Shown: positions 21,691-27,919 of the stretch, one piece after another
How positions within the stretch are numbered: the first letter of the stretch is position 1
How the letters are laid out: each line of letters starts with the position of its first letter
IMG/VR virus record: IMGVR_UViG_3300012920_000159
Span: 1 to 30,792 of that record
Direction: 5' to 3' (one strand)
DNA: 30,792 nucleotides
From: a virus
Notes under the pieces: model-generated
The model's database searches: none
Told to the model about the DNA's origin: nothing
What the model saw: only the letters and a program-made list of their open reading frames with translations
Position numbers and translations under genes: made by a program

Positions 21691-23459
21691 TATACCGGTA
21701 CTTCTTCTCTTATGGTTTGTAAGACGATGACATTATTAGCGATAGTTCTTACACCTCCACTACTATATGTAGTATCCATTTGTATGGAACCAACTGTATC
21801 ACCTATGTTGATTTTAGTCCCATCAATCCTGAAATTGTCTTCATCAGCTTTTTTATTTGGATTAGGTGTAGGTGCATTGATATTAAAAGGTTGAGTGGGT
21901 TGGGTAGGAAGACTACTTGGTGATTGAGGGGGTTGAAACAATTCAAAAATATCTTGCACTTCTTGACTTGTGGTTATACCCGCTTGAGACGCAAGAATGG
22001 GTGCTAGATTTTGCAATATCTGAGTTGCTCTTTCTTTATTTGCCAATCCAATAGAATCTAGGAAAAATGGATTTGATTTGGCATCAATCAACATTTTTTG
22101 AATTATTTGGTTCCTTTCCTCGACAGACATCTTAGCTAATTGTTCTGCCTTTAACTGAAAAATTCTTTCTTTCTTAATTAATCCAAAGTATGCTAATGTT
22201 TGAAAATTCTCAGAGAAAGGTAATGAATCTGATATACTACTACCAATAGCTTTGAGTCCCGCTTCGAACGCAAGTCCAAATATAGATCCTTTAGCAAGAT
22301 CTTTTAAATTTCTAGGGTTTTTGAAGAAATTAAGTACATCTTTTGGGTTAAATTTAAAACCCATACCAAAGTTTTTAAGTTGTTGTCCACCTCTCCTGGT
22401 GCCCTCAACTGCTCTATCAAAAAAGTCCGTAAAAAAGTTTGGATTATTAGGTGGTTTTCCTATTAACTTATCAATTGAAGTAAAAGGCAAACCGGGTGCC
22501 CGAAGAGGAATATCGTCCGCTATTTGAGCTAAGTTAGCTTTGTAGAATTTATCACCTCCATCAATTCCTACTGATTTGAAAAAGGCAGCATCCCTTCTTG
22601 CTTTCTCATTAATAGCATCTTTAATTAAAGAATCATTAAGTCTTTGCTCAGCAGCACGTTGCCGCGCTGCCTCAAGGTTTTGTTTAAACGTATCAAATAC
22701 ATTTTGATCTCCAAGACTTGCACCAACAGGAAGTCCTTGTGATATAGAACCTGCTCCAACAGCAGTGCGACTTCTCAAGAATGTTTTAGCTATGCTTCTT
22801 CTTCTAGCAGTCTCACTTAAAGCAGCATTTCGTGCGCCTGTTACAACTGGTTTAGGAACTTTAGCAGGTGCCTGTACAGGTGCCTTTACAGGTGCTTTTC
22901 TAAATGATGATGGTGTCTGTGGAATTTGAGGCCTTGGTTTTACTTGACTTTTTAACCCAAGTCTAGTTGCAATACCAAGGATGCCATACATCACGGTGTC
23001 TAAAAGACTACTCAATTCCTTAAATGGATTCATCTCAATTAAGAAATCACCAAGAAAATTCAATGTAGGGCCTAAGATTGTTCCAAGTTCTCTCAGACTT
23101 TCAAAAAATGGTACTAATGTTTCATCATAAAAAATTTGCGCCTTTTTGACAAACTCTTTTATTTTTTCAACAACTGCCTTCACCCCCAGAGCAATTTTAT
23201 CAATATTCTTAAGAAGGAATCCTAGTAATGTAAACAATCCAAATCGAAGTAGCGTGTCTGTTATATTACCGCCCCTTTTTTTGACACCTTGCTTTAATTT
23301 TTTTTCATCGAATAATTTACTAGTTTCAATTCTTTTTTCACGATTCTCTCTCCTTTCACCAAGATCATCTGTCTTTTCACGAGAAAATCTTTTTTTCCTT
23401 ATGGCAAAGTTTTTCTTATACGTATCAACGACTGATGTAAACTCGGTTAGTTTAATCAT
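21690..23459 (-). CDS. Tape-measure-like hub/tail protein (second copy)
   Basis: 589 aa. A basic N-terminus with coiled-coil potential contains EKRIETSKLF (41-50), followed by the hydrophobic LLRFGLFTLLGFLLK (70-84) and long helices (IALGVKAVVEKIKEFVKKAQ). The same two motifs with almost the same gap occur in the upstream 729-aa protein, so the two are paralogous in part. The middle is Pro/Ala-rich (KAPVKAPVQAPAKVPKP), and the C-terminus is Pro-rich with a small beta tail. T4 gp29 (tape measure, 590 aa) has about this length, but I cannot show direct homology. It overlaps the 729-aa gene by ATGA. Confidence 0.65.
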   Translation of the reverse strand: MIKLTEFTSVVDTYKKNFAIRKKRFSREKTDDLGERRENREKRIETSKLFDEKKLKQGVKKRGGNITDTLLRFGLFTLLGFLLKNIDKIALGVKAVVEKIKEFVKKAQIFYDETLVPFFESLRELGTILGPTLNFLGDFLIEMNPFKELSSLLDTVMYGILGIATRLGLKSQVKPRPQIPQTPSSFRKAPVKAPVQAPAKVPKPVVTGARNAALSETARRRSIAKTFLRSRTAVGAGSISQGLPVGASLGDQNVFDTFKQNLEAARQRAAEQRLNDSLIKDAINEKARRDAAFFKSVGIDGGDKFYKANLAQIADDIPLRAPGLPFTSIDKLIGKPPNNPNFFTDFFDRAVEGTRRGGQQLKNFGMGFKFNPKDVLNFFKNPRNLKDLAKGSIFGLAFEAGLKAIGSSISDSLPFSENFQTLAYFGLIKKERIFQLKAEQLAKMSVEERNQIIQKMLIDAKSNPFFLDSIGLANKERATQILQNLAPILASQAGITTSQEVQDIFELFQPPQSPSSLPTQPTQPFNINAPTPNPNKKADEDNFRIDGTKINIGDTVGSIQMDTTYSSGGVRTIANNVIVLQTIREEVPV

Positions 23460-25645
23460 GATACTAAGTCCTCAATACCAAGAGCTTTACCCACATATCC
23501 TCTCATCTTGATGCCGGATGAAATACTAAACTCGGGTATATCATTAGCAGATTGAGTGGTAGTATTGTTTACCTCAGCCTTCTTAGTAATTTCAGGAAGG
23601 ACGATAAATTTTGTATTGGATTGCGAATTTGGAGGGCCTATAAAAGGCGTCATCAAGTTTCTAAGATTTCGATAAATCATTTGCTGCGTCTTTTGAGCAT
23701 CCAGTTCGCGTTGACGCGCTCTTTGAAGTCTCCCACGCATATGGCCAGCAGTTGTATCATCGCGAAAAGCAGGGCCCATCGATTGTGGGCCTGTAGTATA
23801 TGATGGTATCACAGGTGGTGCTGATTGAGGCACTGGTGGCATATTAGTTCCAACAAAAGAGGGAATCTGTCCTGGATCTGGGTTACTTGCTCCATAAGAT
23901 ATGGATCCAGGCCCTACAAAAAATCCAAAGAAATTATCTTCACCTTTCTTACCTCTTCTTACATCACCCTTTGCAAAATTTGCATTTTCATTACCACCCA
24001 TGAAGTCAGTTCTTCCACCAACAAATTTTCTTGCTTCTTCTTGAAGTTTTGGATTTTGGATGGCATCTGCAACTCTCTGCAAATATGCAACTGATTTATT
24101 TGTAGCAACAGCAGCACTCTCAATGTCTGTAATATTATACCATTCTGGATTTGGAGTCCTATCTACTTTTTTTCTTGGATGTTTCCATGTTGGTTCATAC
24201 TGATCAGGTGAAAGAATTATTTGTCTGATGTTGCTACCACCACCGTAAACTCCAGATGCTGCTCTATTATAAATGGATTGCGCTACGTCTGCCCATGCCT
24301 GAGGATCACTATCTTCAGTTCCTGCAACTGCAACTAATGTCCAAAAATCTCTACCTTTTTGAGGAACTTTAGCGACAGCACCACCATTTGAATATCCAGG
24401 AACAAGTCCTTGCTTTGGAATATTTGTACCGCCACCTGCTTTATTGATGGCCATCATGGTGTTTACGCCAAACTTTTCAACAGCACCACGACTCATAATA
24501 AATTCACCAGGGGATAACATTGCAGGAACAGTATCTGTTCCCATAGCTAAACCACCATCAGCAAATAATGGAACGAACATAGGGACACCTCCAGGGCCGA
24601 CATTAGGTAATGGAAATCCTTGTCCAGGTTGCGTTGAAGTGCCTGGTGGCGAAGGAAGTCCTTTTTCTTTTTCTTCTTCAGTTGCAAAAAATTGTCCTAT
24701 GAAAGGGAATCTTTTTAGGATGTTTCTAAAGTCCTCACAAAATTTCTCTACCTTTTTTTGTGTTTCTATAAACCAATCAATAACAGGTTGTAAATTTTCT
24801 CTGAGTTCTTTAAATCTATCAGGAATGCTCCTAATAAAATTAATCACATTGTTAATTATATCCTCATTATCAGGATTTGACAAGAAATCAGTTACTAATT
24901 TAATTAATGTTCCGAGCAGAGTAAATCCAAGAAATCTCAGAATGGTATTGAATACGTCACCTAATTTTTTCTTTGCTACATCTGTGGTTTTACTTATAGC
25001 ACCAAAAAGTTTGCCTGCTTCTATTCTTTTCTCTCTTTTCTGTCTCTTTTCTCTTGCATCGCTTTTTCTTTCATAATCTTGTTGATCCTCTTCTAATTTA
25101 TTATCATCTTTGATAACTTGAATAAGTTCATCGAGTTTTTCAATTAACTCTTCAGCAGCAGTATTCTCCTCTTTAGGAATAAGTTTACTGGTGTCAACCT
25201 TGATATCAACTGCCTTTATATCTGGTGCTTTATATCTTTGTCCAATTAGTGGATTTGTAAATGTTTTTGTTTTTAAAAACTTGTCAGGATTAATCTTACC
25301 TTTTCCTGCAATTTCAGAGTCACTTGCTCTCTTAGAGTAAACATCACCACCCTCTTCAGCAGGCGGCCTCATTGGGCCTTGAGGTTTTTGCTCAGCATTT
25401 GGAGTAAATTTTATATCCCCCTTCAACGCAACTTCCATCATGCCAGCCATGCCTCTGGCAATATCTAAAAATTCTCCACCACCTTTTATGATATCACTAT
25501 CTACTTTACTCTGCTCTTTAGGAGATAATGAATTATAGTATTCAGAAAGTTTTTTAATTTGAGCATCAGAAAGTTTGGACACTAAGTCCTTACCGAGTTT
25601 ATACTCGTATGCTAACCTTAATCTTTCGGATGCATTTTTATTCAT
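23456..25645 (-). CDS. Tape-measure-like protein with SleB-like cell-wall hydrolase domain
   Basis: 729 aa. Residues 1-200 are helical and charged. EKRIEAGKLF (205-214) and ILRFLGFTLLGTLIK (235-249) are shared with the following 589-aa protein. ADGGLAMGTDTVPAMLSPGEFIM (362-384) is the motif typical of phage tape-measure proteins. Residues about 434-585 resemble the SleB/Hydrolase_2 fold: WTLVAVAGTEDSDPQAWADV with candidate catalytic E444, QSIYNRA, then IRQIILSPDQYEPTW. That suggests peptidoglycan cleavage during genome entry, taking the place of the gp5 lysozyme. It starts at an ATGA overlap with the 56-aa ORF. Tape-measure identity is likely; enzymatic activity is inferred. Confidence 0.75.
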   Translation of the reverse strand: MNKNASERLRLAYEYKLGKDLVSKLSDAQIKKLSEYYNSLSPKEQSKVDSDIIKGGGEFLDIARGMAGMMEVALKGDIKFTPNAEQKPQGPMRPPAEEGGDVYSKRASDSEIAGKGKINPDKFLKTKTFTNPLIGQRYKAPDIKAVDIKVDTSKLIPKEENTAAEELIEKLDELIQVIKDDNKLEEDQQDYERKSDAREKRQKREKRIEAGKLFGAISKTTDVAKKKLGDVFNTILRFLGFTLLGTLIKLVTDFLSNPDNEDIINNVINFIRSIPDRFKELRENLQPVIDWFIETQKKVEKFCEDFRNILKRFPFIGQFFATEEEKEKGLPSPPGTSTQPGQGFPLPNVGPGGVPMFVPLFADGGLAMGTDTVPAMLSPGEFIMSRGAVEKFGVNTMMAINKAGGGTNIPKQGLVPGYSNGGAVAKVPQKGRDFWTLVAVAGTEDSDPQAWADVAQSIYNRAASGVYGGGSNIRQIILSPDQYEPTWKHPRKKVDRTPNPEWYNITDIESAAVATNKSVAYLQRVADAIQNPKLQEEARKFVGGRTDFMGGNENANFAKGDVRRGKKGEDNFFGFFVGPGSISYGASNPDPGQIPSFVGTNMPPVPQSAPPVIPSYTTGPQSMGPAFRDDTTAGHMRGRLQRARQRELDAQKTQQMIYRNLRNLMTPFIGPPNSQSNTKFIVLPEITKKAEVNNTTTQSANDIPEFSISSGIKMRGYVGKALGIEDLVS

Positions 25646-25812
25646 AACCCGTTTTGTTGTTGCATCTTAAGTTTCTCTTCCTCCAAATGCGATCTTAAGA
25701 GTTCAACATATACGTCTCTCTCCCAAGGTATCATATTTTCAATCTCTGTTAATGAGTATTTATGATACTGCATCAAAGAAAAATTTAACTTAAAATAACT
25801 CTCCAAATTCAT
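25642..25812 (-). CDS. 56-aa GT-like tail assembly chaperone extension
   Basis: Reading frame MNLESYFKLNFSLMQYHKYS to QQQNGL, too short for most gene callers. It contains a helical SLTEIENMIPWERDVYVELL core like those of short tail-chaperone ORFs placed before tape-measure genes. Its ATG lacks a ribosome site: the sequence before it is CACTCTCCCAT, and the nearest GGAGGG is 33 nt away. The frame is open upstream, through codons R-V-A-L-S-H, to a slippery site inside the gp26-like gene. It is therefore most likely expressed as the -1 frameshift extension of that protein, giving a fusion of about 300 aa. It ends in an ATGA overlap with the tape-measure-like gene. Confidence 0.75.
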   Translation of the reverse strand: MNLESYFKLNFSLMQYHKYSLTEIENMIPWERDVYVELLRSHLEEEKLKMQQQNGL

Positions 25813-25851
25813 ATGGGAGAGTGCTACGCGAAAAAACTCGCTAATCCCTCC
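25798..25851 (-). promoter_or_regulatory. Programmed -1 ribosomal frameshift element
   Basis: In order on the minus strand: SD-like GGAGGG (25846-25851); 9-nt spacer; heptamer T TTT TTC (25830-25836) in the correct frame of the gp26-like gene; 7-nt spacer; then a perfect 7-bp hairpin ACTCTCC/GGAGAGT with an 11-nt loop (25798-25822). The 0 frame stops at TAG (25824-25826); the -1 frame continues into the 56-aa ORF. The layout matches the SD, slippery site and stem arrangement of bacterial dnaX-type frameshifting. Confidence 0.8.
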
Positions 25852-26543
25852 AGAGTGACAGTGCTTTTCTTTTTAGTTTTAGGATTGACAATCTCTACAT
25901 CGTGAGAAAGTTTAGGCATTGTAGAGAAGAATGTTTCAATTTGTTTGAACTGTTGAGAGTTCATCTGCTCAAGAAATTCTGTAATCTCTTTCTTTGTAAA
26001 ATCATCTGTTGTCCATGCTTCATCTGAGTTATAAACCTTATCAATGCAGGATGCAATCAATTCAAATGATTGATCAACTTGATTGTCATCAGAAAGTTCG
26101 AAATTATTCTTGACAAATTGATCAAGGGAAGGATATTTCATCTCCATCATTAGAGAATCATCAATCTTGATTTGTTTAGTGTGATCTTTATCATTGGTTA
26201 CTTTGATGTCATCAATACTGATTTGAACTTCGGCATACGTTTCACCATCATCTGGACAAAGAACACTAACTTCAATATCTTCTCCGACAGACTTACCACG
26301 AATGTTAAGAAAAAGAAATTCAATGTCAAACGTGGGAAGCAATTCTACCTTAACACCGCGTGTCTGAATGCATTCCTTCAGCACAGCTTTGATGGCATTC
26401 GTAATTTCTTTTGTACTATCACCCTCTAATGCCAGGACTAAAAGTTTTTCTTCTTTAACGAGAAATGGACGATACTTAATTGTTTTTCCAGTTGAAGGCA
26501 ATTCCAACTCATAAGTTGGTGTGACAATTTTTGGTAAAGGCAT
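25824..26543 (-). CDS. 26: gp26-like baseplate hub assembly protein / tail assembly chaperone
   Basis: 239 aa (T4 gp26 is 208 aa). MPLPKIVTPTYELELPSTGK and IKYRPFLVKEEKLLVLALEG match the T4 baseplate gp26 family (PF12322-like). The remainder holds IEFLFLNIRGKSVGE, the strand CPDDGETYAEVQI and a helical C-terminal half with FLEQMNSQQFKQIETFF. In T4, gp26 acts with gp51 in hub assembly around the tape measure. Here the gene precedes the tape-measure-like gene, and its last codons carry a frameshift element that would append the 56-aa ORF. This is the layout of G/GT chaperones of other tailed phages. A late promoter lies 21 nt upstream of the ATG. Confidence 0.85.
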   Translation of the reverse strand: MPLPKIVTPTYELELPSTGKTIKYRPFLVKEEKLLVLALEGDSTKEITNAIKAVLKECIQTRGVKVELLPTFDIEFLFLNIRGKSVGEDIEVSVLCPDDGETYAEVQISIDDIKVTNDKDHTKQIKIDDSLMMEMKYPSLDQFVKNNFELSDDNQVDQSFELIASCIDKVYNSDEAWTTDDFTKKEITEFLEQMNSQQFKQIETFFSTMPKLSHDVEIVNPKTKKKSTVTLEGLASFFA

Positions 26544-26576: not shown

Positions 26577-27452
26577 TTAAAACATTTCTCTAAAACTTCC
26601 ATCAGCATTACGAACAGGAGTTCCATCAGGTAATAATAATAATCCATCACCGAAGAACGCTCCGTCCATTCTTTCACCAGTGGCAGTATCTCTCTCTACA
26701 AAGTCTGTGCCCTCTCCATTAGTATTTCCAAATGTTTGAGGAATAGAATCATTGATAACAGAATCTCTTTGCTGATCCACAGGAAGATTATCTAAAGATG
26801 AAGATGATGGAGGTGCTGATTGCGTAAAACCACCAGGAGGTATTATAACATAACGAGAAAAATTAAAGTTCACTGTGCAAAGAAGAATCTGTGATTGTTC
26901 ATAACTAACTGGCATTTGATTTATAGAGATTGGATACGCATTCAAAAATTTGTATACTAAGTTATCGCCATTATAATCCCTTTCAAACTTTCTAATGAAT
27001 ATTTCAGTTTTATATTCTTTGGGAAAACTAACTCTATAAAAGAAATTATCCTTTTCTACATCTGTATTTTTTGGTTCGTTTACAATGAAAGCAATATAGT
27101 TTTCAAAAAAATTAATTATATTATAATCATGATCTACATAAAAAGTAAAAGACGCTGTGGTATCAAATTGTCTTCTATATACGTGTCTTTCCGTTACACC
27201 TGAACGATCATTATCAAGTGTATGTGTTGCTAATGAAGTTCCAGGAAGTGATGCCTCTCTACAAGATAAGGTGATATCCTTTTTTAATGTAGAATCATAT
27301 GGAAGTCCCCTTGAGTTCATCCAACTTGCCATCGTGGAAAGTGCTCCCGAAGGAATACTAAAATGACACTCATAAGTAGAGGTAAGAGATGGGCGTAGTA
27401 TACTTGCTTTCAAATCAGCAACATTTCTTGCCTTTGGTTTTGGCGTAGCCAT
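26577..27452 (-). CDS. 54: Tail-tube-fold protein, gp54-like baseplate tube initiator
   Basis: 291 aa (T4 gp54 is 320 aa). The core has the gp19-type tube signature: LSCREASLPGTSLATHTLDN, GVTERHVYRRQFD, SFTFYVDHDYNIINFFENYI, then NAYPISINQMPVSY and the final strand LLCTVNFNFSRYVI. A Pro/Ser linker and an acidic tail follow (about 225-291). In T4, gp54 sits on the hub with gp48 and nucleates tube polymerisation. gp48 is present nearby on the other strand, which supports gp54, but another tube-fold protein cannot be excluded. The gene is the first of the leftward hub operon and is divergent from gp4. Confidence 0.75.
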   Translation of the reverse strand: MATPKPKARNVADLKASILRPSLTSTYECHFSIPSGALSTMASWMNSRGLPYDSTLKKDITLSCREASLPGTSLATHTLDNDRSGVTERHVYRRQFDTTASFTFYVDHDYNIINFFENYIAFIVNEPKNTDVEKDNFFYRVSFPKEYKTEIFIRKFERDYNGDNLVYKFLNAYPISINQMPVSYEQSQILLCTVNFNFSRYVIIPPGGFTQSAPPSSSSLDNLPVDQQRDSVINDSIPQTFGNTNGEGTDFVERDTATGERMDGAFFGDGLLLLPDGTPVRNADGSFREMF

Positions 27453-27481: not shown

Positions 27482-27919
27482 ATGGGAGTAAGTAAGAAAA
27501 GTATTTTTAGTCCCTCCAATCCCAAAAAATATAAGGGAAATGCTAATAATATTATTTGCAGAAGCAACTGGGAACGTCGTTTTTGTAAGTGGTGCGACTT
27601 GACAGAAAATATTCTTGAATGGGGAAGTGAAGAGTTTTTTATTCCCTATATGTCACCAGTTGATCGAAGGGTGCATCGTTACTTCCCTGACTTTATCATA
27701 AAAGTAAAGGAAAGCACAGGACATGTAAAAACATATGTCATAGAGGTAAAACCTAAGAAACAAACAAAAAAACCAACTAGCAAATCATCTTTATTTGAAT
27801 GCAAAACTTACGCTATTAACATGGCAAAATGGAAAGCTGCACGAGAGTGGTGTGCAGACAGAAGAATTGAATTCAAAATCATCACCGAAGACGAATTAGG
27901 TATCAAGTATGGAAGATGA
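27482..27919 (+). CDS. 4: Head completion protein gp4 (TnsA/PD-(D/E)XK nuclease fold)
   Basis: 145 aa (T4 gp4 is 150 aa). CRSNWERRFCKWCD with E31, then YFPDF with P69-D70, then YVIEVKPKKQ with E88-x-K90 form the PD-(D/E)XK nuclease pattern of TnsA-like enzymes, as known for the gp4 (gp50) family. gp4 is needed to complete filled heads before tail joining, possibly by trimming DNA. The start is set by the ATG after a CTAAATA late promoter, with only about 22 nt between. No ribosome site is obvious. The gene overlaps the next one by 11 nt. Confidence 0.9.
   Translation: MGVSKKSIFSPSNPKKYKGNANNIICRSNWERRFCKWCDLTENILEWGSEEFFIPYMSPVDRRVHRYFPDFIIKVKESTGHVKTYVIEVKPKKQTKKPTSKSSLFECKTYAINMAKWKAAREWCADRRIEFKIITEDELGIKYGR

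Follow-up and report, generated by a model that had tools for sequence, protein, structure and literature searches.

A predicted -1 frameshift joins gp26 to the downstream "gp51" frame in T4-like phages, in a probable tail assembly chaperone locus of lambda G/GT type

Frameshifting in tail chaperone genes of the lambda type is textbook knowledge, the slippery heptamer of lambda being G GGA AAG, and gpG and gpGT are the tail assembly chaperones of that phage, reportedly from work by Levin in 1993 and Xu in 2004. A 2016 review, which covers this system, describes the frameshift as conserved among phages with long tails, 'except T4' (PMC5009743). Vladimirov et al. (2022) are cited as having identified the tail assembly chaperones of T4-like phages (PMC10885494, PMC12846349); the PRFect paper takes from them that in some T4-like phages a short gene and a long gene stand in for the frameshift (PMC10885494), and the Adele paper that poly-T stretches are known -1 signals in T4-like TAC-N genes (PMC12846349). 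The locus described in Vandenendeviridae and Andersonviridae resembles ours in having a predicted -1 frameshift at a poly-T, a downstream ORF that is annotated separately and an argument from conservation, but its motif is GTTTTT and the phage families are others (PMC12846349). The initial annotation of our locus knew of no frameshifting for gp26 of T4-like phages. Going by the Adele paper, which credits the poly-T signals to Vladimirov et al., it is probably known, and the well-supported frameshift locus is possibly already contained there. As far as the literature examined shows, what is new is that T_TTT_TTN hardly varies, that the structure downstream of it is under selection and that some members lack a start codon. 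With a probability of roughly 0.92, we predict that a -1 frameshift occurs at T_TTT_TTC and that the locus is a tail assembly chaperone gene of the lambda G/GT type.

The window, by which we mean the whole stretch of DNA analysed, is the 30,792 nucleotides of IMG/VR record IMGVR_UViG_3300012920_000159, a marine T4-like virus. The locus lies on its minus strand, in the order tail tube, chaperone, tape-measure-like protein, as judged from PF23849 and PHROG matches. The tail tube gene (26577..27452; PF23849 1.5e-12, phrog_45 8.8e-37) is upstream, in the position of lambda V. The gp26 homologue of 239 aa (25824..26543; phrog_150 8.7e-77) would be the short, lambda G-like chaperone (TAC-N). It is followed in the -1 frame by an extension of 62 aa (25642..25830), made up of RVALSH and a 56-aa ORF, which is the putative T-like C-terminal domain of TAC-NC. 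The 56-aa ORF matches phrog_634, 'baseplate hub assembly catalyst', at 3.3e-26, and the complete extension matches it at 1.4e-28 and aligns with the C-terminus of T4 gp51; Pfam gave no model for the T domain. The 56-aa ORF also matches the C-terminal part of phrog_150, the family of gp26, which suggests that the two ORFs form one chain elsewhere. The TGA that ends the -1 frame ORF overlaps the ATG of an ORF of 729 aa (23456..25645) in the position of lambda H, which several tape measure PHROGs match weakly (1e-4 to 1e-3). This ORF combines a tape-measure-like motif with a weak cell wall hydrolase match (Hydrolase_2, PF07486; 0.013, under the Pfam cut-off) and, since the gene after gp51 is annotated as lysozyme or endolysin in some relatives, a tail hydrolase may be part of the tape measure. 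Elsewhere in the window, at 27482-27919 on the plus strand, a gp4-like head closure protein matches the N-terminal domain of TnsA-like endonucleases (PF08722, 3.8e-25).

The elements of the signal that were initially described at the end of gp26 are all present exactly as claimed. The Shine-Dalgarno (SD)-like GGAGGG (25846..25851) stands 9 nt (ATTAGCGAG) 5' of the heptamer T_TTT_TTC (25830..25836), which is read in the zero frame as AGT TTT TTC GCG TAG, with the TAG stop (25824..25826) 3 nt past the heptamer. A spacer of 7 nt, GCGTAGC, leads to a 7-bp stem with the 5' arm ACTCTCC (25816..25822), an 11-nt loop (CATATGAATTT) and the 3' arm GGAGAGT (25798..25804). In the -1 frame the reading past the heptamer (...ASFF-RVALSHMNLESYF...) continues without a stop through R-V-A-L-S-H into the small ORF, and translation gives a predicted fusion of 300 aa where about 300 had been estimated. 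The arrangement resembles that of dnaX in having an SD-like site about 10 nt upstream, a heptamer and a stem a few nt downstream, and differs in that the slip site encodes Phe-Phe and that of dnaX Lys-Lys; the dnaX frameshift yields the shorter product, whereas here it would yield the longer one. The main ORFs of the window hold seven in-frame T_TTT_TTN in 8626 codons. The slip site is the sole one near a gene end, 6 nt from the end of its ORF with the stop included, and the remaining ones are at least 429 nt from the gene ends. Taken by itself the hairpin of the window is modest (-8.8 kcal/mol, z -1.84, with 9 of 200 shuffles as good), and a search of Rfam returned no match. It is conservation across relatives, and not the single sequence of the window, that makes the case for a frameshift.

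A first set of junctions was assembled from 80 IMG/VR loci, S-SM2, P-SSM2, S-PM2 and the window (85 rows, the window being counted twice), and in all 85 gp51 is in the -1 frame relative to gp26. Addition of more distant phages, which include KVP40, AS-szw, Moby, DLP_6, S-CRM01, S-N03 and Bakedbeans, gave 252 loci with 205 distinct junctions; viral scans with KVP40 and AS-szw yielded few loci. T_TTT_TTN is found in 251 of the 252 loci, with the gp26 stop 0 or 3 nt after it in every case and C (199), A (28), T (23) or G (1) as its last base. The lone exception, the distant relative Kuja, has C_CTT_TTT with only five T; at this position (L090:3030-3049) slippage with mispairing in the P site is possible. 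The codon that contributes the first T is AGT, TCT, AAT, GAT, GGT or GCT (Ser, Asn, Asp, Gly or Ala), so ending in T in all 205 distinct junctions, and the codon after it is always TTT and never TTC (205/205). Synonymous changes occur in every one of 231 codon columns except that of this TTT. As the sequences are related, naive codon-column probabilities are not significance values, and the other columns are the fair control: the other homologous Phe columns contain both TTT and TTC. Most members have a conserved S-F-F at the C-terminus of gp26, and TTT is favoured where a genome is rich in A+T, so the heptamer might have been a chance occurrence or a by-product of a conserved Ser-Phe-Phe. The unchanged TTT, a preceding residue that may be any of five amino acids but always has a codon ending in T, the presence of the heptamer in all loci but one and the selection on the structure downstream of it make the probability of this negligible.

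The -1 frame itself is also conserved. Its first 40 codons contain a stop in none of the 205 junctions, against 204 for the +1 frame. Junctions whose heptamer ends in A instead of C have Leu in place of Phe in the zero frame but mostly keep Arg in the -1 frame (AGA or AGG for CGN). The -1 residues ahead of the supposed start are kept as protein, with Leu or Met at codon 4 encoded by seven different codons and His at codon 6; codon 2 was left out as evidence because the overlapping stop partly fixes it. Alignment of the junction in relatives, the check proposed at the outset, thus strongly supports a -1 frameshift that joins gp26 to the downstream ORF, with heptamer, -1 frame and continuity holding to about 25% gp26 identity.

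The initial annotation had called the 56-aa ORF hidden, which it is not in relatives: many cyanophage records list it as gp51, 'baseplate hub assembly catalyst', though those of S-PRM1, S-BM3 and AS-szw show no gene at this place, and no joined frameshift gene was found among the annotated regions of the relatives examined. The public records would have gp51 as an independent small protein with its own ATG, translated by termination-reinitiation just past the gp26 stop, and an ATG is indeed present within 14 codons past the slip site, read in the -1 frame, in 139 of the 205 junctions, in the window 11 nt past the stop codon (25810..25812). A further 25 junctions, however, have only GTG or TTG there and 41 have none of the three, while 130 of the 139 first ATGs are not preceded by an SD-like motif at the right distance, as had been remarked for the small ORF of the window. 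The start-less junctions come from several clades, among them one of the window's own clade (L004), the Melnitz clade, AS-szw and Bakedbeans, and in these slippage would be needed to express the domain. The -1 extension of AS-szw, both unannotated and start-less, still matches phrog_634 at 1.7e-11. Independent initiation would also leave unexplained the invariant heptamer with its T-ending preceding codon, the protein-like conservation ahead of the ATG and the fusion of the T domain to a chaperone domain in T4 gp51, and we consider it very unlikely. Where an ATG precedes the T domain, as in most relatives, separate initiation may take place in addition to slippage; the ATG of the window, which has no SD before it, is probably an internal Met of the fusion.

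Both flanks of the slip site carry features that would assist a ribosomal frameshift. About 9-11 nt upstream there is a conserved purine run, weaker in the distant phages and retained in most junctions, and the Gly codon GGG follows the Glu codon GAA in 26 of 49 cases but GAG in 24 of 137 (p = 4e-6, uncorrected for relatedness). The 51 nt past the slip site fold at a mean of -10.1 kcal/mol, compared with -5.4 for synonymous recodings that keep the -1 peptide (mean z -1.86; -0.19 and -0.42 for control windows further down). On these energies the downstream RNA structure is selected as a feature, its register varying between clades. The SD-like site and a downstream structure therefore stand as parts of the signal first described, whereas the exact 7-bp stem does not: most of its pairs break over 124 members of the clade, RNAalifold over clade members found no common structure, and clades use other hairpins and registers. 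Very strong hairpins, down to -21 kcal/mol, were seen just past the slip site in three loci (L246, L142 and L234; GTATGGCTCA...TGAGTCATAC). They are much stronger than that of the window, and the efficiency of frameshifting may differ between clades.

With six to eight T in a row in nearly all loci, the -1 product could in principle arise from slippage of the polymerase on the T run during transcription rather than of the ribosome. A bacterial polymerase usually slips efficiently only on longer runs, and Kuja has five T only. Neither the SD-like purines nor the selected RNA structure would be needed by a polymerase, and the T run is always in the X_XXY_YYZ phase; it would seem extremely unlikely that transcriptional slippage is responsible.

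Structures were modelled for gp26 alone and for a T4-type gp51. The three best VIA-align matches of the AlphaFold2 model of gp26 (pLDDT 86.6) are HK97 gp13 (2ob9, Z 7.9), rbstp2171 (3fgx, Z 7.9) and YqbN (3klu, Z 7.3), with the next match at 4.8. Each of them is listed among the tail assembly chaperones in PMC9603447. The Z values are moderate, with an rmsd of 3.9-4.3 over 84-86 residues, and for some models values of 7-8 are at the level of unrelated matches. Foldseek found no significant match of the gp26 model in the PDB and a PDB sequence search with gp26 gave no convincing relative; for the T4-type gp51 model, no chaperone structure was among the listed PDB matches.

In T4, genes 26 and 51 are separate full genes on opposite strands and divergently oriented, and the same is true of the other T4-type loci examined. 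Both T4 proteins match PF12322, the family to which the short form of the window is homologous (1.7e-73), but the window has no separate, complete gene for a long form as T4 does. When the T4 proteins are aligned to a profile built from the frameshift fusions, gp26 extends to position 238, which is the slip point, while gp51 crosses the slip point and extends to position 283 of 297; on phrog_150 the match of T4 gp51 reaches position 280 of 282. That one ends at the slip point and the other crosses it indicates that T4 has one gene for the short form and another for the long form, with T4 gp26 the homologue of the former and T4 gp51 that of the complete fusion. T4 would then need no frameshift, whereas here only the C-terminal 56-62 aa are separate, in the -1 frame. 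On these alignments the 'gp51' of cyanophages corresponds to no more than the C-terminal part of T4 gp51, and it is not a new ORF. For marine viruses this would mean a corrected annotation in one of their most abundant groups, where 'gp51' would be the tail end of a longer chaperone instead of a small independent catalyst.

The homology of the fusion with T4 gp51, together with the chaperone matches of the gp26 model, points to a system of the lambda G/GT type. As in lambda, a short chaperone with a -1 extension lies between the tube and tape measure genes, in the order V-G-T-H, with a TAC fold and the slip site close to the end of the short ORF. The differences are the heptamer T_TTT_TTC, the contractile tail of a T4-like phage and a stop that follows the slip site after only 0-3 nt; a fixed ratio of the two forms and their binding to tape measure and tube, part of the gpG/gpGT system, are here predicted by analogy. 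We infer that slippage occurs in vivo; how efficient it is and what each form does are likewise inferred. Most ribosomes would end at the TAG and release the 239-aa short chaperone. A minority, aided by GGAGGG upstream and the hairpin downstream, would slip back one base at T_TTT_TTC, with TTT TTC re-pairing as TTT TTT, to make the 300-aa long chaperone with its C-terminal T domain. If lambda is a guide, the tape measure protein encoded by the next gene would be coated by many copies of the short form and a few of the long one, the T domain would recruit tail tube subunits, and both forms would leave before the virion is completed. The reported role of T4 gp26 and gp51 as hub chaperones and the absence of gp51 from the particle (PMC3004832) fit a chaperone function. 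The long-standing puzzle of these two hub assembly factors of unclear role would thereby be linked to the well-understood G/GT system of lambda.

A tree places the frameshift forms in one group, separate from the two T4 clades, but it is unrooted (no outgroup) and has a long gp51 branch, and the direction of change was judged by parsimony over taxa instead. KVP40 and the Aeromonas phages, which belong to the family of T4, use the slip site, which makes the two-gene state more likely the derived one. We therefore think it fairly probable that frameshifting at T_TTT_TTN is ancestral in T4-like phages, comprising Kyanoviridae, Straboviridae of the KVP40 and Aeromonas types and several unclassified groups, and that T4 and its close relatives split the products into paralogous genes. 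If so, the classical gene 51 of T4 is a frozen frameshift product, and the exception made for T4 (PMC5009743) would apply to T4 and its close relatives, not to T4-like phages at large.

Two further observations concern these families. In one locus (L265:3001-3750) a gene 51 of the T4 type lies in two different frames, with the break in mid-gene near residue 120 and not at the junction of the chaperone and T domains, which may reflect a sequencing error or a broken gene. Near the C-terminus of gp26, Straboviridae have a zinc-ribbon-like CxxCG pair (L089, L086; T4 gp26, L094), where cyanophage gp26 has N-P-K-T.
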